The position numbers and the translations under genes are program-made. From IMG/VR virus record IMGVR_UViG_3300010158_000216, positions 1-31,531 of that record: DNA of 31,531 nt. The stretch is one strand, 5' to 3'. This stretch comes from a virus. Below, in pieces: positions 4,812 through 31,412 of the stretch (the stretch's first letter is position 1; every line of letters starts with the position of its first letter). The notes under the pieces were generated by a model that saw nothing but the letters and a program-made list of their open reading frames with translations, ran no database searches and was not told the origin of the DNA.

Positions 4812-4842
4812 ATTAGGTTATATCAAATTTATTTTATATATT
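4812..4842 (+). promoter_or_regulatory. phage promoter ATTAGG-N19-TATATT, leaderless type
   Basis: ATTAGG (4812-4817) and TATATT (4837-4842) are separated by exactly 19 bases, as in four other intergenic copies. TATATT ends 6 bases before the ATG of the family A polymerase gene, so a start point 6-7 bases downstream would fall on that ATG and the mRNA would have no leader. The TATATTTC box also resembles the Bacteroidota -7 element TAnnTTTG. Confidence 0.75.
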
Positions 4843-4848
4843 TCTGGT

Positions 4849-6201
4849 ATGCTACCCATTGTAGAAACCGAAATTGAATTATTTGACTTGATAAGTGAAA
4901 TCGAAGATCATCGTATCTTTGTAGCACCAATACTGAAAGATCCATTTCTGCATTATCAAGTAAATAGCATTTCTTTATTATATTTATATGATCTTACAAC
5001 AGACAAAGAATGTATAGTAAGTTTTAATCATTCCGAAGCTCTTTCTATTAACGAATCATTATTAACTAAACTATTATGTGCTAGTAAAGAATGCTTTGTT
5101 TTAAATCTTAAGTATATATTATCTAAAGTTACTTGCGCTCATATGTATGATGCTAATCTTGTAATATATTTTACTACGAACAAGTCAATAGATTTAGAGG
5201 AATATAATACTCCCGTTCACGAATATTTTAATCAAAAATACAGTAATCTTAAAGATCTTAATCATCTTATACCAATCGTTAAGCAGCATGAAAAGTTTGG
5301 CGATATAATAAAAGAGCATAAAGAATTATTTAAGACATTTAATATAACTGAAGCATTTATAAAATATAATACAGCAATAAAGACTCTTAATAAAATAGAA
5401 GTAAATGGATTATATGTTAATTCTGATATATTAAAAGAAACATTTCCAAATGTAACAATAACTAATGATTTTGTTTATTCTGAATATAATCCTTATACAA
5501 CAACAGGAAGACCTTCAAATAGATTTGATTCAGTAAATTATGCGGCTTTAAATAAAGAATCAGGAGTAAGAAAATCATTTAAATCTAGATTTGGAAGTGA
5601 TGGATTCTTATTACAATTTGATTATGATGCATACCATATTAGATTATTAGGAGAATTATTAAATTATGATTTTCCAGGTAAAATAAATATGCATGAGTAT
5701 TTTGGAAGACAATATTTTGGAAAAGATATATTAACTCCAGAAGAATATGATCAAAGTAAAGGAATAACCTTTAAATTATTATATGGTGGTATTGAAAAAG
5801 AATTTTTAGAAATACCTTTTTTTAAATTAGTAGATGATTTTACTAAAACTAATTGGAAACTATATAAAGATCAAAGATACCTAGAAACGCCAATATATAA
5901 AAGGACATTAAAAAATACTTTCTTTAGTGAGATGAATTCGCAGAAACTTCTTAACTATCTTATTCAATCATTAGAGATGGAAGAAACGTTGGCGATATTA
6001 GATACTTTGACGAGCTTTAATGAAGGATATAAGAGTAAGCTAATACTATATACCTATGATTCCTTATTGATCGACTTCCACAAAGATGATGGCGGTAAAT
6101 ATATTAAGAAATGCCAAGACATATTAGAATGTAATGGGAAGTATCCAGTAAAAGTTCAAGCAGGTTATGATTATCAATTATTGAAGAATGTAACGTTATA
6201 G
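4849..6201 (+). CDS. divergent family A (Pol I-like) DNA polymerase
   Basis: This 450-residue protein carries the ordered motifs of a family A polymerase. A TGR segment (T219-R221) starts the palm. Motif A is FDYDAYHIR with D258 in place of the catalytic Asp of DYSQIELR. Motif B (O helix) is KGITFKLLYGG with K304, F308, Y312 and G313 in Pol I register (K758, F762, Y766, G767). A Q-helix-like NYLIQS has N369 and Q373. Motif C is YTYDSLLIDF with D404, where Pol I has His-Asp. Both catalytic aspartates are therefore kept, while the usual R754 position is Tyr and the motif C His is Tyr. It is short, with about 200 residues before the palm, and I could not place exonuclease motifs there. It sits directly after an ATTAGG promoter and precedes accessory genes. 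Polymerase ancestry is secure; activity and role beside the family B enzyme are inferred. Confidence 0.85.
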   Translation: MLPIVETEIELFDLISEIEDHRIFVAPILKDPFLHYQVNSISLLYLYDLTTDKECIVSFNHSEALSINESLLTKLLCASKECFVLNLKYILSKVTCAHMYDANLVIYFTTNKSIDLEEYNTPVHEYFNQKYSNLKDLNHLIPIVKQHEKFGDIIKEHKELFKTFNITEAFIKYNTAIKTLNKIEVNGLYVNSDILKETFPNVTITNDFVYSEYNPYTTTGRPSNRFDSVNYAALNKESGVRKSFKSRFGSDGFLLQFDYDAYHIRLLGELLNYDFPGKINMHEYFGRQYFGKDILTPEEYDQSKGITFKLLYGGIEKEFLEIPFFKLVDDFTKTNWKLYKDQRYLETPIYKRTLKNTFFSEMNSQKLLNYLIQSLEMEETLAILDTLTSFNEGYKSKLILYTYDSLLIDFHKDDGGKYIKKCQDILECNGKYPVKVQAGYDYQLLKNVTL

Positions 6202-6222: not shown

Positions 6223-6801
6223 ATGACAAGCATCTACAACTTATTCAAATTTATAGAAGATAAAGAAGGATATAAAACTCCTCTTGAAGTTAAGTTACTT
6301 AATGCGCCAGAAACTATAACTCCTGATGATTTAATAATTAAAGGCGGTCTTTATTTAAATAATACTAAAATAACATCACTCCCCGATAATTTAGTTGTTA
6401 AAGGAGATCTTGATTTAACAAATACTAAACTAACATCATTCCCTAATAATTTAACAGTTGGAGATACTCTTAATTTAGCTTATACTCCAATAACATCACT
6501 TCCTGATAATTTAACAGTTAGAGGTACTCTTATTTTAACTAATACTCCAATAATAAAATTGCCAGATAATTTAAATGTAGGAAGAGATCTTTATTTAATA
6601 AATACTAAAATAACGACTTTACCTGATAATTTAAAAGTTGGGGGGACTCTTAATTTAACTAAGTCTAAAATAACGTCGCTACCAGATAATTTAAATGTAG
6701 GGAGAGATCTTTATTTATATAGTACTCCATTATCCAGAAAATATACAAAAGACCAATTAAGACAAATGCTACCTGGCGTCAAAGGAGATATATATTTATA
6801 A
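6223..6801 (+). CDS. leucine-rich-repeat-like protein (20-residue repeats)
   Basis: This 192-residue protein consists of a 33-residue N-terminal cap, seven tandem 20-residue repeats (residues 34-173) and a short C-terminal cap (about 174-192). The repeat consensus is PDNL-x-V-x-G-x-L-x-L-x-x-T-x-I-T-x-L, with regularly spaced Leu and Asn positions as in short solenoid leucine-rich repeats seen in many phage and bacterial proteins. The last repeat drifts into STPLSRKYTKDQLRQ, a charged helix-like cap. No catalytic motif or signal peptide is visible. The gene lies between two copies of a 27-bp repeat and looks like a mobile accessory gene (moron). Solenoids of this type usually bind proteins; the partner is unknown. 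Confidence 0.8.
   Translation: MTSIYNLFKFIEDKEGYKTPLEVKLLNAPETITPDDLIIKGGLYLNNTKITSLPDNLVVKGDLDLTNTKLTSFPNNLTVGDTLNLAYTPITSLPDNLTVRGTLILTNTPIIKLPDNLNVGRDLYLINTKITTLPDNLKVGGTLNLTKSKITSLPDNLNVGRDLYLYSTPLSRKYTKDQLRQMLPGVKGDIYL
6322..6741 (+). repeat. seven tandem 60-bp coding repeats
   Basis: Seven in-frame 60-bp units encode the 20-residue PDNL repeats. Units 4 and 6 share a nearly identical stretch encoding LNVGRDLYL, which suggests recent unit duplication or exchange. The copy number is likely to vary between related phages. Confidence 0.85.
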
Positions 6802-6841: not shown

Positions 6842-7228
6842 GTGATACGACTACTTTGCACATTTACTATAGAAGATAATCTTCAATCAGTAATTAATGA
6901 TATTTCAACTAATTATGATATCCTTAATGGGAAGATTTTTATTCTTCAGTTAAGCGAAAATCCAGAGCTAGCTTGCACATATAACATAGAATCCGGTAAC
7001 CTTAGTAACCTACTAGATAATACAATATCTATACATAGAAGAAAAGAAAATAATGTATTATATACTATTAATGGATTAAACCATTTAATAAAATCACTTA
7101 ATAATAATATATTGGATAAAGGATATAAAATTAATTGGGATGATTATTCCAATAGCGCGTTACTAGTAACTGATGGCCAATTAGTAATACATCAATTACA
7201 AATATACAAGATTGTATATATAAAATAA
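6842..7228 (+). CDS. hypothetical protein, GTG start
   Basis: This is a 128-residue soluble protein of unknown function, low in charge and rich in Asn, Ile and Leu. GTG at 6842 is the only usable start: the protein has no internal Met and a TAA lies in frame at 6836. The second half alternates short predicted strands (NNVLYTING, ALLVTDGQLVIHQLQIYKIVYI) with one helix (LNHLIKSLNNNIL). I recognise no domain. It follows the second copy of the 27-bp repeat, whose AT-rich half may serve as its promoter, and is followed 16 bases later by another accessory gene. Confidence 0.55.
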   Translation: MIRLLCTFTIEDNLQSVINDISTNYDILNGKIFILQLSENPELACTYNIESGNLSNLLDNTISIHRRKENNVLYTINGLNHLIKSLNNNILDKGYKINWDDYSNSALLVTDGQLVIHQLQIYKIVYIK

Positions 7229-7834: not shown

Positions 7835-8626
7835 ATGGCAATTAATTTAGACAGCATTAGAGCGAAGCTCGTAGATTTGCAAAAGAACACTGGTAAAAGT
7901 GAAAAACAAGAAAATCTTTGGAAACCAGAAGGTACCCAAGTAATCAGAATCGTACCGTATCAATTCAATACGGAGAATCCATTTAATGAACTTTATTTTC
8001 ATTATGAATTCGGTAACAAACAATACTTATCACCATCGACATTTGGTAAGGCAGATCCAGTAGTAGAGTTTTCAGAAAAGCTTCAATCAACAGGTAAAAA
8101 AGAAGATTGGAAATTAGGAAAGAAAATTGAACCTAAAATGAGATGTTATGCACCTATTATCGTTCGTGGTAAAGAGTCAGAAGGAGTTAAATTTTGGGGA
8201 TTTGGTAAGACAGTATATGCTGAATTATTAGCATTTATTGCTGATCCTGATTATGGTGATATTTCAGATCCAGTTTCTGGAAGAGATATTACAGTAGAGT
8301 TCAAAACTAAAGAACAAACAGGAAAAGACTTCCCTGAAACATCAATCCGTATTAAACCAAATCAAACTCCAGTTTCTACAGATAAAGAAATTATCAAAAA
8401 AATAGCTACAGGTCAAAAGAATTTATTAGAGATTTTTAAAGAACCTTCTTACGAAGATTTAAAGATAGCTTTAACAAATTGGTTAAATCGTGATACAGAA
8501 GGAATGGCAACAGACGCAGCACCTGCTCAATCTGGTACAGCCACTAAAGTATCAACTCCTACAAAGCCCGCCGAAACTAAATCGGTAGAAGATATATCAA
8601 GCGCATTCGATAGCTTGTTTAATTAA
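7835..8626 (+). CDS. 32: gp32-like single-stranded DNA-binding protein
   Basis: This 263-residue protein matches the T4 gp32 type of SSB found in T4-like phages. After a short basic N-terminus come LWKPEGTQVIRIVPY, then NPFNELYFHYEFG, LSPSTFGKADPVVEF, RCYAPIIVRG, VKFWGFGKTVY and IADPDYGDISDPVSGRD, the usual order of OB-fold segments. An acidic, helical C-terminus (SVEDISSAFDSLFN) fits the protein-recruiting tail. The Cys/His zinc site of T4 gp32 is not recognisable: only one Cys remains, in RCY. It would coat single-stranded DNA at the fork and organise UvsX, helicase and polymerase. It has its own promoter upstream and a hairpin downstream, which fits high separate expression. Confidence 0.92.
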   Translation: MAINLDSIRAKLVDLQKNTGKSEKQENLWKPEGTQVIRIVPYQFNTENPFNELYFHYEFGNKQYLSPSTFGKADPVVEFSEKLQSTGKKEDWKLGKKIEPKMRCYAPIIVRGKESEGVKFWGFGKTVYAELLAFIADPDYGDISDPVSGRDITVEFKTKEQTGKDFPETSIRIKPNQTPVSTDKEIIKKIATGQKNLLEIFKEPSYEDLKIALTNWLNRDTEGMATDAAPAQSGTATKVSTPTKPAETKSVEDISSAFDSLFN

Positions 8627-8691: not shown

Positions 8692-9843
8692 ATGGCAAAA
8701 AAGAAAAGTGAAGGACTTGGAGCAGATGACATCCAAGAAGATTTAGCGTCAGTACTAGCAAGTACATTAAATGCAAAATTCAAAGAAACAAATCAAAAGG
8801 TAGCATTCTTTTTAGATAAAGATGTTGATTCTCCTAGTAATGTTACAGATTGGATTTCTACAGGCAATGATATTGTAGATTTAGCTATTTCAAATAGACC
8901 TTATGGTGGATTACCAGTAGGACGTATTATAGAGATAATGGGTGAAACCGCAGCAGGTAAGTCTTTATTAACTGCTAGTATTTTAGCTCAATGTCAACGT
9001 AAAGGTGGATTAGCAATTTATATTGATACTGAAAATGCAGTAGCAAATGAATTCTTTGAAATGTTGGGTATGGATTTAAGTAAAATGATTTATGCTCCTA
9101 TTGAAACAATAGAAGATGCATTTGCAGTTATTGAAACTATCATTGAAAAAGTTCGCATATCTGATAAAGATAGATTAGTGTGTATTGCAATTGATTCTAT
9201 TATGGGTGCAACTACAAAAGTAGAACAAGCAGCTGATTATGAAAAAGATGGATTTGCAACTACCAAAGCTATTGTATTATCAAAAGCAATGCGTAAAATT
9301 ACTAATATGATTGGTCGTCAAAAGATCTGCTTAGTTTTAACTAATCAATTACGTGATAAAGTTGGAGTTATGGGGTTTGGAGAAAAGACTCAAACATCAG
9401 GAGGTAAAGCAGTTGGATTCCATGCTTCTGTAAGATTGCAACTTTACAATTTAGGTATGATTAAAAAGTCAGACGGGACGGTAGTAGGAGCAAGAACAAA
9501 ATTAAAACTTAAAAAGAATCGTTTAGGACCACCGAGCAGAGAAGTAGAATATGATATTTATTTTGATTCGGGCATTGATTCAGCGCCAAGTTGGATTGAC
9601 GAATTAGTAAAGCATAAGTTAGTTAAGAAGCGCGGAGCATATTACGATTACGTAGATCAAGAAACAGGAGAAGAAGTAATTTTTACGTCTGCTAATATAT
9701 TGACAAAGTTTAAAGAAAATCCTGCACTAAAGAAACAGGTATATGAAAGACTTTGCAGCGAATATATTATGAAGTATGATCCTTCTAATCCAGATGAAGA
9801 ATTACAATTAGTTACAAGTCCCGATGGTGGAGACGATTTTTAA
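8692..9843 (+). CDS. uvsX: UvsX/RecA-family recombinase
   Basis: This 383-residue ATPase forms filaments on single-stranded DNA and drives strand exchange, acting with the gp32-like protein in recombination-dependent replication. Walker A is GETAAGKS (residues 84-91). A D-T-E-N stretch follows IYI. Walker B is CIAIDS (D168). TNQL has the sensor Q219, and the DNA-binding loop region runs from there to TSGGKAVGFHAS. The C-terminal 80 residues are charged and end in DDF. The order and length fit T4 UvsX (about 390 residues) and RecA. No Shine-Dalgarno sequence precedes the ATG; the leader is AT-rich and follows a hairpin. Confidence 0.93.
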   Translation: MAKKKSEGLGADDIQEDLASVLASTLNAKFKETNQKVAFFLDKDVDSPSNVTDWISTGNDIVDLAISNRPYGGLPVGRIIEIMGETAAGKSLLTASILAQCQRKGGLAIYIDTENAVANEFFEMLGMDLSKMIYAPIETIEDAFAVIETIIEKVRISDKDRLVCIAIDSIMGATTKVEQAADYEKDGFATTKAIVLSKAMRKITNMIGRQKICLVLTNQLRDKVGVMGFGEKTQTSGGKAVGFHASVRLQLYNLGMIKKSDGTVVGARTKLKLKKNRLGPPSREVEYDIYFDSGIDSAPSWIDELVKHKLVKKRGAYYDYVDQETGEEVIFTSANILTKFKENPALKKQVYERLCSEYIMKYDPSNPDEELQLVTSPDGGDDF

Positions 9844-11507: not shown

Positions 11508-12563
11508 ATGCTGAATAAATATATCGAATTATTAAAAGAAATTCAGCAAGAGAAAGATAGTGCCGATTCAGTTAATATTAATTCCAGGATTATGTTAATT
11601 GACGGCACTAATTTTTATCTTCGCTGTTTCATGGCAAATCCAAGTTTAAATGAAAATGGAGAGCACTTAGGAGGATCATTAGGATTCTTGAGATCTTTGG
11701 GCTCTTATATTAAGACATTTAAACCTACCCGGGTAATTATTACCTTTGATGGTAAAGGCGGTTCGCAAAAAAGAAGAGATATTTTCAGCGACTATAAAGG
11801 AAATAGATTAAACCCTAAATCATTTAATAGGGCTGAAATATTTGAAAACGCAGAAGATGAAGCAAAGTCAATGCAACATCAATTTATGCGATTAGTTCAA
11901 TACCTAAGATGCTTACCAGTATTAGTAGTTTCTTTAGATCATATTGAAGCAGATGATATGGTATCATATTTAACGACATCAGTATTACCTAAGGTAAGTA
12001 ATAATATTATATTGGTTTCAGATGATAAGGATTTCTTACAACTAATAAACGATAAAGTATCAGTATACAGACCCGTTGAGAAAAAGATGTATAAACTGCC
12101 GGAAATGAAAGAAAGATTTGGAGTCCCTGCAGAGAATTATCATTTGTATAAGGTCTTTATAGGAGACTCATCCGACAATATACCCGGCATACCAGGAATC
12201 GGGCCTAAGACCGCAGAAAAACTGGCTATACTACAAGAAAATAGGATTGTTGGTTTGCAAGAGTTTTTAGATTATTGTGAAGCCAATGCCGATAATAAAG
12301 TATACAAGAAGATTTTAGATCATAAGGAAGCAATTATACGAAACTATAAGTTAATGCAGTTACATGATGTTGATATATCAGGAGCGCATAAATTATTTTT
12401 GCAAGATAAGTTTAGAGATTCTGTATCTACAATCAATAAAAATGAATTCTTACAAATTTTAACATTAGATAAGGGCTACACTTATATTAAAGATCCTGTA
12501 GCATTTTTAAATTATTTCAGTCAACTAAATTTATTTGCGCTAGGAACTAATAATAACTCTTGA
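11508..12563 (+). CDS. rnh: 5'-3' exonuclease / RNase H of the FEN family
   Basis: This 351-residue protein has the metal-binding acidic residues of 5' nucleases: D32 in LIDGTNF, IEADD (E147, D149, D150), SDDKDF (D172, D173, D175) and GDSSDN (D220, D223). These are followed by the helix-hairpin-helix IPGIPGIGPKTAEKL that binds duplex DNA. Size and order fit T4 RNase H, which removes Okazaki primers, or the nuclease domain of Pol I. The upstream context is ATAAGTTATGTATG. The first ATG (11504) is out of frame and encodes only four residues before a stop, so translation must use the second ATG at 11508. It lies between GroEL and the helicase in the replication cluster. Confidence 0.9.
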   Translation: MLNKYIELLKEIQQEKDSADSVNINSRIMLIDGTNFYLRCFMANPSLNENGEHLGGSLGFLRSLGSYIKTFKPTRVIITFDGKGGSQKRRDIFSDYKGNRLNPKSFNRAEIFENAEDEAKSMQHQFMRLVQYLRCLPVLVVSLDHIEADDMVSYLTTSVLPKVSNNIILVSDDKDFLQLINDKVSVYRPVEKKMYKLPEMKERFGVPAENYHLYKVFIGDSSDNIPGIPGIGPKTAEKLAILQENRIVGLQEFLDYCEANADNKVYKKILDHKEAIIRNYKLMQLHDVDISGAHKLFLQDKFRDSVSTINKNEFLQILTLDKGYTYIKDPVAFLNYFSQLNLFALGTNNNS

Positions 12564-12593: not shown

Positions 12594-13955
12594 ATGAATC
12601 AAGACAAATTTACTCAATACGGAAAAACCTTTCAATTAAAAATTATAGCAGCATTATTAAAGGATAAGTTATTTCTTCAACAAATATATGATATACTTAT
12701 TCCTGAATATTTTGATTCTGAAGCCAATACCTGGATTGTAAATGTAATAATGAAATATTTTCCAGAGTATAAGACAGTCCCTACCTTAGAAGTATTTAAA
12801 GTAAAGGCCTTAGAATTAACTAATGAACCTTTAAAAATGTCTATTGTAGAATCTTTAAAAGATATATTAAGATATGTTGAAGCCGAGGATTTAGAGTTTG
12901 TTAAATCTGAATGTATTAATTTCTGTAAGAACCAATGTATTAAGACTGCTATTATTGAATCAGTAGAATTATTACAATCTGGAGAATATGACAATATTAA
13001 GAAAAAGATTGATAATGCTATGAAAGCAGGAGCCAATCAAGATATTGGAATGGATTATTTAAAGGATGTTAAACAAAGATATGAAACATCATCTAGATTA
13101 ACTCTCGCAACTCCCTGGACTGCTTTTAATGAATTAGTTGATGGTGGTATTGGTAAAGGAGAGCTTATTATATTTGTAGCAGGACCTGGAGCAGGTAAAT
13201 CTACTGCGATGATTAATGTTGGAGCTCATTTATTAAGACAAGGTAAGACGGTAGTGCATTATACAATGGAATTATCAGAGCCTTATGTAGCTCAAAGATA
13301 TGATTCGGTAGTTACAGGAATAGCTACTGCGAACTTAAAATATAACTTAGATGAGGTAGAGCATGAATTAGGAAAATTAACAGGTCAATTAATATTAAAG
13401 TATTTTCCAACAAAAACCGCATCAGTAACAACCTTAAAGGCGCATTTAGATAAAATATTAATGCAAGGAATAAAACCAGATATCGTTATTGTAGATTATG
13501 CAGATTTATTAAGATCAGCTAAATCAAAAGAGAAGCTTCATGAAGAGCTAGAAACTACATACGAAGATTTAAGAGGATTGGCAGGTGAATATCAAATACC
13601 ATTAGTTACAGCATCTCAAGCAAATAGAAGTTCAGTTGAATCAGACATTATTACATCAGATCAAGTAGCTTCTTCTTTTAGCAAGATTATGATTGGAGAT
13701 GTTATTATTTCATTAGCAAGAAAGACAACAGATAAGATAGCCGGAACAGGAAGAGTCCATTTTATTAAGAATAGATTTGGACCTGACGGATTAACTTTGC
13801 CAACAAAACTTAATATGTCTAATGGAAGAATTGATATGTATCAAGAAACTTCTATCAAGGGAAGAGAGACAAGAACAGATATGGATGAAGATACGATAAC
13901 ACGAAAATCTTTAGCTAATAAATATTCTGAACTTTTAGGAGATTCTATGGGATAA
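12594..13955 (+). CDS. 41: DnaB-family replicative helicase (gp41-like)
   Basis: This 453-residue protein has a helical N-terminal domain (about 1-160) and a RecA-like motor domain. Walker A is GPGAGKST (residues 197-204). MELSEPYVAQRYDS is the DnaB motif 1a region. Walker B is DIVIVDYADLL (D301). TASQANRSS carries the glutamine of motif H3, and FIKNRFGP contains the arginine-finger region seen in DnaB helicases. Length and order fit T4 gp41, which unwinds DNA ahead of the lagging strand and binds primase. A primase gene is not present in the window. It follows the 5' nuclease by 30 bases. Confidence 0.93.
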   Translation: MNQDKFTQYGKTFQLKIIAALLKDKLFLQQIYDILIPEYFDSEANTWIVNVIMKYFPEYKTVPTLEVFKVKALELTNEPLKMSIVESLKDILRYVEAEDLEFVKSECINFCKNQCIKTAIIESVELLQSGEYDNIKKKIDNAMKAGANQDIGMDYLKDVKQRYETSSRLTLATPWTAFNELVDGGIGKGELIIFVAGPGAGKSTAMINVGAHLLRQGKTVVHYTMELSEPYVAQRYDSVVTGIATANLKYNLDEVEHELGKLTGQLILKYFPTKTASVTTLKAHLDKILMQGIKPDIVIVDYADLLRSAKSKEKLHEELETTYEDLRGLAGEYQIPLVTASQANRSSVESDIITSDQVASSFSKIMIGDVIISLARKTTDKIAGTGRVHFIKNRFGPDGLTLPTKLNMSNGRIDMYQETSIKGRETRTDMDEDTITRKSLANKYSELLGDSMG

Positions 13956-20320: not shown

Positions 20321-21016
20321 ATGGAATATAAAAAAGACATGAAATGGCGTAAATTAAAATTTACTGCAGAAGAAAAAAAGCAATATTATAATAGTATTAT
20401 TAAACCTTTAATTTGGGAAGGGTTGACATCAAAAAAAATGCAAGATGATAAATTAATATTATGCTCACATCCTACAGCTCGAGTCCTTTTAAAAGAGTTT
20501 GGTACTGAAGATGATATTATTAAGTATACAAATAACACGAAGTCTGGTAAAGCGCATGGTAAAACTAAAGGTCGTGCTAATAAATATAAAGGAATGAAAT
20601 ATGAGGAATGGATGTCACCTGAAAAAGTAATATCTAAAAAGGCTCAAGCTTCAAAACTTTGGAAGGAAAATAATCCCAGAAAATTCTTTACTGGAAATAA
20701 TGTTAGTAAAGGACAGCGTTTATTATATGAGACTATAAAAGAAAAATTTCCTACAGCAGTATTAGAATATGAAATAGCAGCGCCCGGCAAAAAATATTAT
20801 TTAGATATTGCAGTTCCTGACCTTATGCTAAATTTTGAATATGATGGTATATATTGGCATTCATTTCCCGAAGCTATTGAACGAGATAAAAATCGTGATA
20901 TATACTTAAAATCGTTAGGATGGAAAGTTTTTAGGTATTCATTTAATGCTAGAAATGATTTGGAAGTTAGAGAAGAATTAATTAAATTAAATATAAATTT
21001 TAAAGAATATGAATAA
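20321..21016 (+). CDS. EDxHD/Vsr-like homing endonuclease
   Basis: This 231-residue protein has two parts. The basic N-terminal half (about 1-125) contains GKAHGKTKGRANKYKGMKYEE and KKAQASKLWKENNPRKF, similar to NUMOD-type DNA-binding segments of phage homing enzymes. The C-terminal half is a Vsr/PD-(D/E)XK-type core: a helix after SKGQRLLYE, strand YYLDIAVPD (D162, D167), then FEYDGIYWHS with E173, D175 and H180 (the E-x-D-x4-H of EDxHD enzymes), ERDKNRD, and GWKVFRYS. It stands between a broken and an intact queE 5' end and overlaps the intact queE by 8 bases. Free-standing homing endonucleases usually cut alleles lacking the insertion, so queE is the probable target. It likely makes a double-strand break or nick. 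Confidence 0.85.
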   Translation: MEYKKDMKWRKLKFTAEEKKQYYNSIIKPLIWEGLTSKKMQDDKLILCSHPTARVLLKEFGTEDDIIKYTNNTKSGKAHGKTKGRANKYKGMKYEEWMSPEKVISKKAQASKLWKENNPRKFFTGNNVSKGQRLLYETIKEKFPTAVLEYEIAAPGKKYYLDIAVPDLMLNFEYDGIYWHSFPEAIERDKNRDIYLKSLGWKVFRYSFNARNDLEVREELIKLNINFKEYE

Positions 21017-26381: not shown

Positions 26382-27230
26382 ATGTGCAAAACAACTTGTT
26401 TAATATGTAATAAAGAATTTTCGTATGTGAGCAATACGCATCTAAAAACTCATAACTTAACTCCTATAGAGTATAAGGCCAAATTTCCCAATGCTAGCTT
26501 TAAATCTGAGATAATAAATAAAAAATCAGGCGATAAAACCCGTGGCAAATCTTATGAGGAGTTATATGGCATCGATAATGCAAAGTTATTACGTAAAAAT
26601 AGGAGTATTGCTGCGAAAAAACAAATGAAAGATATAAATCAAATTAATATACGTCGTGAGAAATGTGGATTGCCAGAGCATTATACAATTGATCGTAAAT
26701 TAAATATGTCTATTGCAGCTAATAATGAAGATTTAAAAGAACGAAGAAGAAATACTGTCATTAATAATATAGAAAATAATAAATATCAATCTAAGATATA
26801 TGGTCGTCAAAGCAACCAAGCTAGATCAGTCATCAAAGAATATCTAAAACTTCATGATATTGATGATTCTCTATGTTATTATGATGGCGGTGGTATTACT
26901 GGGAATGAATACTATCAGATAATATATAATCCTATAACTAATAGAAAAAAGTCTATAGCTTATGATTTAGTAATAACCAAAGATTCAAAGCACTTAATTA
27001 ACATTATTATAGAAATTAATGGGCCGTGGCATTATCGATTAAATGAAGTGTTATTAGATCCCAGTGGGTCATCATGCCCATTAAAATCAAATATATATAC
27101 TAAAAAAGAGTCATATAATATAGATGCCTTAAAAATAAATAAGGCTTTGGAATTATCAGAAAAAGTTTATATATTCTGGTTAGATACGAAAGAATTAATA
27201 GAAATAAAAAATCAAATAACGTTAATATGA
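26382..27230 (+). CDS. zinc-finger EDxHD-like homing endonuclease
   Basis: This 282-residue protein begins with a zinc finger: C6-x2-C9 and H20-x3-H24 in CLICNKEFSYVSNTHLKTH, followed by LTPIEYKAKFP, a module common at the start of phage homing endonucleases. The middle is basic and helical (KTRGKSYEELYG, LRKNRSIAAKKQ), like NUMOD DNA-binding repeats. The C-terminal domain has AYDLVI (D195) and IIIEINGPWHY (E211, N213, H217), then SYNIDALKINKALE, the layout of Vsr/PD-(D/E)XK-type nucleases with a changed E-x-D. It has its own AT-rich upstream element, and its stop overlaps folE by 4 bases (ATGA). As with the element in queE, folE is a plausible target region. Nuclease activity is inferred. 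Confidence 0.78.
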   Translation: MCKTTCLICNKEFSYVSNTHLKTHNLTPIEYKAKFPNASFKSEIINKKSGDKTRGKSYEELYGIDNAKLLRKNRSIAAKKQMKDINQINIRREKCGLPEHYTIDRKLNMSIAANNEDLKERRRNTVINNIENNKYQSKIYGRQSNQARSVIKEYLKLHDIDDSLCYYDGGGITGNEYYQIIYNPITNRKKSIAYDLVITKDSKHLINIIIEINGPWHYRLNEVLLDPSGSSCPLKSNIYTKKESYNIDALKINKALELSEKVYIFWLDTKELIEIKNQITLI

Positions 27231-27844: not shown

Positions 27845-30394
27845 ATGTATAAGAATGTATATTATAACAGAGAACAAAATGAAGTAATTGTTTGGGACGA
27901 TAAAAAAGGTCGTCTTAATTTTAAGTATAAGAAATATGCTTATATCAAATCTCCTAATGGCAAGTTTACTGCTTTAGATGGTAATCGTGTAGAGAAAGTA
28001 TTTACTTGGGATGCTGCAGACGAACAAAGAGGTATTATTTATGAATCGGATGTTAAAGCAGAGGTAAGAACCTTAATCGATAACTATGGTGATACAGATG
28101 ATATTGCAGAAAATGTAACTACTTTATATTTTGATATCGAGGTTGCAAAAGGAGATGGTTATTCTACTCCTTGGGACGCTTCAAACGAAATTACTTCAAT
28201 TGCATTGTATGATGATAAATCTAAAGAATGGAGCGTATTATTAGTTGACAGAACCAATACGGTAGCTGACAGACATAATTCAAAATATACTTTAGAGGTA
28301 TTTTCATCAGAATCAGGATTATTACAAAGATTCTATGAATTATATTTAAAGATTCAACCCGATATCTTAACTGGATGGAATATAGATGGATTTGATATTC
28401 CTTATGTTTATAACAGAGCTAAAAAGCTATTAGGTGGAAGTGTTGCTAAGCAATTAAGTCCAGTTGGAGTAGTTAGTAAAGCATACAAGAAAGATAAGAT
28501 TGATATTGCAGGTATAACTTCATTAGATTATATGTATTTGTATAGATCATTTACTTATAATGAAGAACCTTCTTATGCTTTGGAATTTATCTCTCAAAAG
28601 GAATTGGGCAGGGGTAAGATTCAGTATGAAGGTAATTTAGATGCTTTATATAAAGCAGATTTAGATAAGTTTATTGAGTATAACATTAATGACGTTCAGC
28701 TTATTGTTGATCTTAATGATAAATTAGATTTTATTACTCTTGCAAGAAACATTGCTCATAAAGGACATGTTCCATATGAAGATGTATTTGCAGCAACTAG
28801 ATATCTTGACGGAGCCTGTTTAACTTACTTATCTCGTTTGGGAATTATCGCAACTAATAAACCTGTAAGGGAAGAAAAAGATGATGATGATGAACCTATA
28901 GGAGATAATGCTTTTGAAGGAGCATTTGTAAAAGATCCTAAACCAGGATTATATGAATGGGTATTTGATTTGGATTTAAAGGCACTATATCCTAGTTGTC
29001 AAAGAACAATAAATATTTCTCCAGAAACTAAAGTATGTAAGATTGAGAATTGGGATCATAACAAGTTTATGTCAAATGATCCTGACCAAGTTTATAAATA
29101 TAAAAATAAATCATGGAAAGGCGGTGAGCTTAGAGAATTCTTAATATCTAATAATTTTTCTATATCAGCAGTTGGAGTTGTATATGATCTTAAAGCAAAA
29201 GGATTAGTTCCTTCTATTTTAGAGAAATGGGATTCAGAAAGAACAGAATATCGTCAGCTAGCAAAAAAATATGGTGAAAGTGGTGATGAGAAGATGTATA
29301 GATTCTTTGATGCAAGACAATTAACTATGAAAATTATCTCAAACTCATTATATGGTGTTTTAGGTAATGCAGGATTTAGATTCTTTGATATTGATAATGC
29401 AGAGGGTACAACCTTAGGTGGTAAAGCAGTTATTATGCATAAAACAAATGTAGTAAATAAATGGCTTAATGATAAGATGGGTACGTCAGGTATTGATTAT
29501 GTATTATATGTTGATACAGATTCTTGTTTCTTATCTGCAATGCCTTTAATAAGAAAATTACAGAAAGCCCAAGGTAAAATATTTACGAAAGAAGAATGTG
29601 CAGGTATGACATTTAAGTTGGCGGTAGCATGTGAATCATTTATTAATTCTACGTTTGATGAATTTTCGTTATTAGCATTTAATTGTAAAGAACATCATTT
29701 CTTAACAAAGCAGGAATATGTATCTGAAACAGCTATGTGGATTGCTAAGAAACGATATGCTCAAAAAATTATATCTGAAAAAGGAACATCTATATCTCAA
29801 ATAACTAATGGTAAGAAGGAATATAAATTAGATGTAAAAGGATTGGATGTAGTAAGATCATCTTTCCCAAAAGCATTTAGAGGATTTATGTCTGGTATAT
29901 TAGTTGACATTCTTAATAAAGCAGAGAAGCAAGAAATTGTAGATAAGATATTTGAATTGAAAGATTCGATGCCCAATTTAGAAATATATGATATTATGGT
30001 TACTTCCGGTATTAAAGAATTAAGTAAATATCCTTGTAAGAAAACAGGATCAATATTTAAAACTAGACCAAAAGGAATGACAGCCCATGCTAAATCCGCA
30101 GCAAACTTTAACGATTTATTAGAGCATTTTAAAGTTAATTATATGGCTCCTATTAAAGATGGCGATAAAATTAAATGGACATACCTAAAACCCAACCAAT
30201 TAGGCATTGAAACCTGTGCTTTAACGGGCTATAATGATCCTTTGGAGATATTATCTATAGTTAAAGAAAACGTTGATTATAATGGTATCTTTGAGTCTTC
30301 CTTGAAAAATAAATTGGATGACTTTTTCTCAGCATTAGGCTGGGGCTCAGTGCCAAATAATAACAATACAAAAAAATTCTTTGATTTTGTATAA
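27845..30394 (+). CDS. 43: family B DNA polymerase (T4 gp43-like)
   Basis: This is an 849-residue replicative polymerase with both domains complete. The 3'-5' exonuclease has LYFDIE (D97, E99), GWNIDGFDIPY (D184) and YNINDV (D283). The polymerase has motif A DLKALYPS (D377), motif B KIISNSLYG (K496, N500, Y503, G504) and motif C YVDTDSC (D557, D559). Thumb residues follow, ending in KKFFDFV, a hydrophobic tip like the sliding-clamp-binding end of T4 gp43. The gene is not split and has no intron or intein. It follows folE without a gap. The stop codon overlaps a TATAAATA, a candidate promoter for the next gene. Confidence 0.96.
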   Translation: MYKNVYYNREQNEVIVWDDKKGRLNFKYKKYAYIKSPNGKFTALDGNRVEKVFTWDAADEQRGIIYESDVKAEVRTLIDNYGDTDDIAENVTTLYFDIEVAKGDGYSTPWDASNEITSIALYDDKSKEWSVLLVDRTNTVADRHNSKYTLEVFSSESGLLQRFYELYLKIQPDILTGWNIDGFDIPYVYNRAKKLLGGSVAKQLSPVGVVSKAYKKDKIDIAGITSLDYMYLYRSFTYNEEPSYALEFISQKELGRGKIQYEGNLDALYKADLDKFIEYNINDVQLIVDLNDKLDFITLARNIAHKGHVPYEDVFAATRYLDGACLTYLSRLGIIATNKPVREEKDDDDEPIGDNAFEGAFVKDPKPGLYEWVFDLDLKALYPSCQRTINISPETKVCKIENWDHNKFMSNDPDQVYKYKNKSWKGGELREFLISNNFSISAVGVVYDLKAKGLVPSILEKWDSERTEYRQLAKKYGESGDEKMYRFFDARQLTMKIISNSLYGVLGNAGFRFFDIDNAEGTTLGGKAVIMHKTNVVNKWLNDKMGTSGIDYVLYVDTDSCFLSAMPLIRKLQKAQGKIFTKEECAGMTFKLAVACESFINSTFDEFSLLAFNCKEHHFLTKQEYVSETAMWIAKKRYAQKIISEKGTSISQITNGKKEYKLDVKGLDVVRSSFPKAFRGFMSGILVDILNKAEKQEIVDKIFELKDSMPNLEIYDIMVTSGIKELSKYPCKKTGSIFKTRPKGMTAHAKSAANFNDLLEHFKVNYMAPIKDGDKIKWTYLKPNQLGIETCALTGYNDPLEILSIVKENVDYNGIFESSLKNKLDDFFSALGWGSVPNNNNTKKFFDFV

Positions 30395-30815: not shown

Positions 30816-31412
30816 ATGTTTATATCATACAGGCAATGCCCAAAATGTAATCAAGAAATACAGCAATTATCTAGCATATCTCAAGCTCGTGCAGATTATA
30901 CTAGCAAGCAGTCTATTAAACATAAAAAACTTTGTCGCAGTTGTATAGCCACAGATGTTAATAATAGACGATGGTCAATTCAAACTAATAGAGATAAACA
31001 GTCTGAACGATGGAAATCTAATAATCCTTCTAAAATTAATGGGCCATGGAATAAAGGAATACCAAGAAGCATAAAGGATCGAAATGCAATTAAAGAGTCT
31101 TTAAAAGATCGTAATACCAAAGGAGTGTTCAATCCTAATTATGGAAATCTTAAATATCATAATATAGGTAATGAATTTAAAAAATATTCTGAAAGAGTTA
31201 GAGTATTAACTGAAAGGAATCGGTATAATATATTTGGATATGACGAAACTATTAGAGGTAAAACAGGCGAATTGGGTAAATATCAAATTGATCATATTAA
31301 GTCTATTTTACAGTGTTGGAAAGAATCTATATCTGTAGAAGATGCATCATCTATATCAAATTTACAATTTATTACGTGGCAAGAAAATTTAAACCGGAGA
31401 ATATTTAAATAA
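30816..31412 (+). CDS. HNH homing endonuclease with zinc ribbon
   Basis: This 198-residue protein starts with a four-cysteine zinc ribbon (C8, C11, C40, C43). It is followed by a NUMOD3-type segment around NGPWNKGIPRS, a basic linker, and a C-terminal HNH nuclease: KYQIDHIKSI with D159 and H160, a helix with SSISNLQFIT, and WQENLNRRIF. This layout is typical of free-standing homing endonucleases in T4-like phages. It has its own AT-rich upstream element, and its stop codon overlaps the ATG of the following gene by one base (TAATG). It lies downstream of the DNA polymerase region, a frequent neighbourhood for such genes. Confidence 0.88.
   Translation: MFISYRQCPKCNQEIQQLSSISQARADYTSKQSIKHKKLCRSCIATDVNNRRWSIQTNRDKQSERWKSNNPSKINGPWNKGIPRSIKDRNAIKESLKDRNTKGVFNPNYGNLKYHNIGNEFKKYSERVRVLTERNRYNIFGYDETIRGKTGELGKYQIDHIKSILQCWKESISVEDASSISNLQFITWQENLNRRIFK

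Follow-up and report, generated by a model that had tools for sequence, protein, structure and literature searches.

Why should a virus that encodes a complete, proofreading replicase also carry a second, compact DNA polymerase? The question is raised by ORF 4849-6201 in a 31.5-kb virus fragment (hereafter the window, i.e., the whole stretch of 31,531 nucleotides that was analyzed). The window has a T4-like gene set, comprising baseplate genes, gp32, RecA, GroEL, a 5' nuclease, a DnaB/gp41 helicase, and a gp43-like family B polymerase (PolB), along with ribonucleotide reductase, QueE-like, and GTP-cyclohydrolase-like genes; genes without a Pfam or PHROG match were assigned by reading the sequence. 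This gene set resembles that of the Far-T4 phages (PMC4360716), some of which have been assigned by prediction to Bacteroidota hosts (PMC7198788). Three ORFs (20321-21016, 26382-27230, and 30816-31412) appear by eye to encode HNH/homing-type endonuclease-like proteins.

Identification of a divergent family A polymerase

The initial annotation had proposed that the ORF encodes a divergent family A enzyme of compact size and that the window also holds a full family B replicase with proofreading, and both parts of this proposal were borne out. The two genes are as follows.

27845..30394, + strand: gp43-like family B replicase whose proofreading motifs are intact (PHROG_262, 2.9e-175)
4849..6201, + strand: divPolA1, a compact thumb-less family A DNA polymerase (PF00476, PHROG_17, hhalign, AlphaFold2)

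The PolB displays the exonuclease motifs FDIE, NIDGFD, and YNIND and the polymerase motifs DLKALYPS, KIISNSLYG, and YVDTDS. ORF 4849-6201 starts with ATG and encodes 450 aa. Single-sequence searches with this protein recovered PHROG_17 DNA polymerase (1.1e-10) and Pfam DNA_pol_A (PF00476; E = 1.1e-5, 25 bits, below the 34.3-bit cutoff), and the corresponding search of the PDB was weak (0.37). A profile of 79 family sequences recovered the Klenow fragment (3.8e-8), and 63 of these 79 members matched PF00476 at an E of ≤0.01. Profile-profile comparison of the family with 10 PolAs by hhalign gave an E of 8.6e-20 (99.2%). The AlphaFold2 model (pLDDT 94.7, pTM 0.91) aligns end to end with Klenow (best Foldseek E of 2.2e-18), with TM-scores over the query of 0.74 to 0.80 against Klenow structures, the highest being to 1kfs, and it has a Klenow-like palm and fingers with the Asp residues of motifs A and C. 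The protein is a divergent branch within the family A superfamily, and this placement stands despite the absence of the Glu710 equivalent (see below) because it is based on homology and fold.

A degenerate exonuclease-like domain and a truncated thumb

Alignment with E. coli Pol I shows two further departures from the standard architecture.

4849..5268, + strand: degenerate 3'-5' exonuclease-like domain, residues ~1-140 (hhalign, column makeup)
5443..5472, + strand: thumb remnant, residues 199-208 (alignment with Pol I)

Residues 4 to 198 are collinear with Pol I 332 to 555 (hhalign, E of 6.2e-6), a region that covers the first palm helix as well as the 3'-5' exonuclease-like domain. The exonuclease carboxylates compared were D355, E357, and D424, D501 being without a confident counterpart in the alignment; these positions are occupied by P27, L29, and I90 in the window protein and, column by column, mostly by P/V, S/L/Y, and L/F/W in the family, whereas all 10 reference PolAs keep D/E/D/D. 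The initial statement that no exonuclease motif could be identified is more aptly recast as the presence of a degenerate exonuclease domain; judging by its sequence, the N-terminal third of divPolA1 is a dead 3'-5' exonuclease domain. Residues 186 to 445 align with Pol I 631 to 927 (hhalign). The segment corresponding to E. coli 556 to 650 (~95 residues, essentially the thumb) is reduced to 3 to 14 residues in divPolA1 versus 95 to 205 in the 10 references, a loss that had previously been missed. The fingers are also shorter (55 to 58 residues versus 78 in Klenow and 70 to 106 in the references). In E. coli Pol I, a truncated thumb leaves activity in place and reduces processivity and fidelity (Minnick 1996, as cited in PMC10061031).

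Invariant and substituted active-site positions

We then compared 165 full-length divPolA1 members (39 groups at 70% identity) with 10 divergent reference PolAs, including those of E. coli, T7, T5, a schitovirus, and the full PolA of Flavobacterium phage immuto_3-5A (hereafter immuto), a cultured phage of Flavobacterium sp. LMO8.

5620..5637, + strand: motif A, D258-Y-D-A-Y-H263, with Glu710 replaced by His (D and H in 165/165)
5746..5787, + strand: motif B (O helix), Y300...K304...F308...Y312-G313, with Arg754 replaced by Tyr (member counts)
6055..6060, + strand: motif C, Y403-D404, with His881 replaced by Tyr (165/165)

The catalytic D258 and D404 are invariant in all 165 members, as are R221 (R668 of Pol I), K304, F308, Y312, G313, Q373, and E376, and N369 (N845) is kept in 164. 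Both Asp residues and the Lys-Phe-Tyr-Gly pattern of the O helix had been read correctly from the sequence in the first place, as had the Tyr residues at the R754 and H881 positions, which prove to be family-wide: the former is Tyr (Y300, in a YxxxK pattern) in 162 of the 165 members (98%) versus Arg in 10 of 10 references, and the latter is Tyr, giving Tyr-Asp, in every member versus His-Asp in 10 of 10 references. The initial annotation had not picked up a third substitution, that of Glu710 by His263; this position is His throughout the family and Glu in all 10 references, and is preceded at position 709 by Tyr or Phe in all members. None of the family A hallmarks E710, RxxxK, and His-Asp is thus found in divPolA1. 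E710 has been described as universally conserved in family A (PMC4882331), the E710A variant of Pol I is a mutator (PMC6345897; PMC4882331), and altering positions 709/710 in Taq lowers fidelity or lets ribonucleotides in (PMC6345897). A Ser/Ala at the E883 position was considered as a further special feature and dropped, as ordinary reference PolAs also vary at the residue following the motif C Asp.

The family is under purifying selection (dN/dS of about 0.07 to 0.16), and this, together with the invariant catalytic and pocket residues, indicates that the active site is under selection. The divPolA1 sequences make up a single clade that is set off by a long branch and separate from the full PolA of immuto. 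A pseudogene or decaying copy of the phage's own replicase is therefore rejected, given the separate long-branch clade, the dN/dS near 0.1, and the invariant motifs.

The divPolA1 family and its distribution

The family had escaped the initial annotation but is already known: Yutin et al. (2024, Virol J 21:200; PMC11348598) named it divPolA1 in 14 phages, including immuto, and its discovery is to be credited to them. They described a truncated thumb and an inactivated 3'-5' exonuclease, inferred that polymerase activity is retained, and noted that it is a second polymerase besides the regular DNAP (PolC in some genomes), with replication genes downstream, a conserved neighborhood that they took as a hint of a role in replication itself. 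Our literature search found no use of the name beyond that article and its preprint. The window protein is 31% identical to immuto divPolA1 (QQO91919; tblastn 6e-52 over 97%), and as a test of immuto homology, the divPolA1 profile matched MW353176 at 2.9e-176. With this homology, the truncated thumb, the lost exonuclease Asp, the status of second polymerase, and the downstream replication genes, the window gene is a further member of divPolA1. The article text makes no mention of the His/Tyr pocket substitutions or of a constant 128-aa partner (see below); as far as that text shows, the present analysis adds these two features, the scale (>500 viral loci), the finding that carriers have a primase, and the absence of any strict link to queC.

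Profile-derived patterns recovered at least 554 confirmed relatives in IMG/VR, and the immuto query recovered 312. By comparison, 84,980 bacterial and archaeal genomes yielded two relatives, both on contigs of metagenome-assembled genomes. Seven database phage records were matched, one of which (CRP-212) represents an ordinary PolA. The LR756508 protein as sole query found no match in viral contigs, and the Far-T4-like phage RM378 gave no match to the divPolA1 profile. divPolA1 is virus specific and occurs in a large group of T4-like phages; the many bacterial viruses that carry it are aquatic. Members are sometimes left as hypothetical proteins and can now be correctly annotated: in Microcystis phage Mel-JY01, divPolA1 (L013:11452-12678) is labeled "hypothetical protein," and the stand-alone 5' nuclease (L013:16847-17887) is labeled "DNA polymerase I."

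A conserved gene neighborhood with a constant 128-aa partner

Downstream of divPolA1, the window encodes the following genes.

6842..7228, + strand: conserved 128-aa hypothetical protein, the constant neighbor of divPolA1 (50/50 loci)
7835..8626, + strand: gp32-type single-strand DNA-binding protein (PF08804, 1.5e-15)
8692..9843, + strand: RecA/UvsX-type recombinase (PF00154, 5.8e-49)
11508..12563, + strand: free-standing 5' nuclease resembling T4 RNase H or the N-terminal domain of Pol I (PF02739, 1e-29; PF01367, 9.5e-14)
12594..13955, + strand: DnaB/gp41-type helicase (PF03796, 2.5e-18)

The two Pfam matches verify the 5' nuclease that the initial annotation had placed at 11508. In loci with room on the contig, the 128-aa gene is found downstream of divPolA1 in 50 of 50 cases, gp32 in 49, the 5' nuclease (within about 4 to 7 kb) and the helicase in 47 each, and RecA was detected in 36, all on the same strand; on the upstream side, 94 of 95 loci with room retain a tail gene. 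The reverse test, starting from the 128-aa gene, recovered the polymerase in 32 of 32 loci with room, mostly directly adjacent, and within a phage collection, both genes map to one and the same set of six records. The 128-aa protein, which occurs in hundreds of phage contigs, has a His-Arg that never varies and a conserved stretch, HRKKETNTLYTINALN. Its AlphaFold2 model (pLDDT 93.1) gave no significant fold match in the PDB, the OB fold included, and searches of Pfam and PHROGs gave no convincing match. In the window, a protein with 20-residue LPDNL-type repeats (6223-6801) lies between polymerase and partner, an arrangement seen in only five relative loci.

A regulatory element may also precede the gene.

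4837..4842, + strand: TATATT, 12 bases ahead of the ATG, candidate element of a leaderless or short-leader promoter (enrichment, conservation)

TATATT[AT] occurs 3 to 22 bases before 8 of 35 starts in the window versus ~1 expected (about eightfold), with sites including those upstream of 4849, 6223, 12594, 15967, 16636, 20321, and 30414. The sequence TTATATTTCTGGT before the divPolA1 ATG is kept in relatives, while the sequence further upstream differs there. The earlier suggestion that divPolA1 has its own leaderless-type promoter is plausible, as is a promoter with a short leader at this place.

Replicases of the carriers

Among 22 divPolA1 records, most of them long, 20 encode a full replicase elsewhere, namely, PolB in 12 and a full PolA of ~780 aa in 8; the two never occur together, and two fragments have neither. 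An exclusive pairing with PolB is rejected, as eight records carry the full PolA; a full-length PolA replicase accompanies divPolA1 in the immuto group. In immuto, this main polymerase (L017:21855-24188) lies beside the GroES/GroEL genes, and at the counterpart of this site in the window, GroES is followed a few genes on by PolB, i.e., a replicase swap in a similar neighborhood. In the 484-kb phage LR756508.1 (260623-266900), PolB appears to be divided between two open frames of 1,022 and 625 aa, perhaps reflecting an intein, an intron, or a split gene.

Proposed role and alternatives

The results above establish family membership, fold, the lost thumb and exonuclease residues, the invariant catalytic Asp and pocket substitutions, the gene pairing, and purifying selection, whereas catalytic activity, substrate, partner binding, and biological role are inferred. 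The lost proofreading, the truncated thumb, and the changes at 709/710 together point to short, error-tolerant synthesis. The role that appears most likely, and to which we give about an even chance, is short-patch, non-proofreading accessory synthesis on SSB/RecA-coated DNA. divPolA1 would act as a low-processivity, error-tolerant enzyme making short DNA patches on SSB- or RecA-coated substrates such as recombination intermediates, primer ends that have stalled, and gaps created by the 5' nuclease, while the genome would be copied by PolB or the full PolA. Because its own thumb is gone, divPolA1 probably needs help in gripping DNA, and the gene pairing suggests that the adjacent 128-aa protein is the most likely binding partner to provide it. 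Of the roles first suggested for the gene, repair and gap filling with the 5' nuclease fit the conserved neighborhood, but the copying of modified bases fares poorly: queC was found in only 5 of 17 divPolA1 records and is missing from both the complete 190-kb record and the 484-kb record, and a link to 7-deazaguanine as a requirement is rejected on these grounds.

Two points speak against this role: the missing E710, R754, and H881 equivalents might mean that ordinary dNTP incorporation has been abolished, and Yutin et al. read the conserved neighborhood as hinting at participation in replication itself. divPolA1 and the 128-aa protein could also form a two-subunit enzyme of a previously undescribed kind, a thumb-less PolA with its DNA grip provided in trans and a rebuilt pocket (with His at position 710 and Tyr at positions 754 and 881) conferring another substrate choice, e.g., ribonucleotides, de novo starts, or damaged ends; we regard this as unlikely.

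The constant partner also brings to mind a two-component primase-polymerase, with the pair starting DNA chains de novo like CCPol and MP of SCCmec. The layout is that of CCPol-MP (PMC7581432), with a small protein of unassigned family encoded after a compact non-proofreading family A polymerase and with a helicase nearby, and shortening of the last thumb helix has been suggested to give the initiating triphosphate room (PMC10061031). This reading is nevertheless rather improbable: a DnaG/gp61-type primase is present in 11 of 17 carrier records and in all nine tested records of ≥150 kb, the E710 equivalent kept by CCPol (PMC7581432) is never kept by divPolA1, and the partner model matches neither an OB fold nor anything else in the PDB. 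That divPolA1 is the sole primase of the phage is likewise weakened by the gp61-type enzyme. Since a primase is usually present and queC was found in just 5 of 17 records, divPolA1 need not serve for either priming or the copying of deazaguanine.

There is also little likelihood, in our estimate, of a dedicated nick-translation and Okazaki-maturation enzyme, for which divPolA1 and the separate 5' nuclease would constitute a rebuilt split Pol I. Displacement synthesis would be an odd task for a thumb-less enzyme, and only 3 of the 11 large records examined yielded a DNA ligase from either of the two main families, even though the close linkage of the 5' nuclease in 47 of 50 loci, alongside SSB and helicase, is what such an enzyme would predict. 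In T4, gp43 and RNase H do this job, which we count against this reading.

The loss of E710, R754, H881, the thumb, and the exonuclease could alternatively mark a non-catalytic or barely catalytic accessory factor in which the Pol I fold serves for DNA binding or as a scaffold; this is very unlikely, as an abandoned site would not need to keep Asp258, Asp404, Lys304, Tyr312, and Gln373 in 100% of 165 members. Finally, the 709/710 pair of Tyr/Phe and His coincides with a hotspot of sugar-tolerant Taq variants (PMC6345897), as might befit a polymerase for rNTPs or other unusual nucleotides with a relaxed sugar gate, but the bulky His may still shut out the 2'-OH and the scarcity of queC argues against a deazaguanine link, making this highly doubtful.

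The replacement of E710, R754, and H881 across a family whose catalytic metal ligands are fixed is a natural experiment on the needs of family A catalysis, and through the constant partner gene, one can ask directly whether the thumb of a polymerase can be outsourced.

Comparison with known systems

divPolA1 resembles Klenow in its fold over the full length (TM-score of 0.80 on the query), in its frame of motifs A, B, and C, and in having the equivalents of R668, K758, F762, Y766, N845, and Q849; it differs in being without a thumb, in its dead exonuclease domain, and in the E710H, R754Y, and H881Y replacements. A second thumb-less PolA beside a PolB replicase is likewise seen in divPolA2 of barbaviruses, which has, however, another N-terminal globular domain and a variable neighborhood (PMC11348598). 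With the CCPol-MP/PolA-SSB primases and the TV-Pols, divPolA1 shares the combination of a compact family A enzyme and a small partner gene near a helicase. Unlike them, it has lost E710 and RxxxK, it occurs in phages with their own DnaG-type primase, and its loci encode a DnaB-type rather than a D5 helicase. TV-Pols are defined by a two-helix thumb and RxxxK, neither of which is found in divPolA1, and the small partner in CCPol-MP/PolA-SSB is an OB-fold single-stranded-DNA-binding protein; the model of the constant divPolA1 partner gave no significant PDB match of any kind. Functionally, CCPol-MP comes closest: there, a small partner turns a compact PolA into a primase (PMC7581432).
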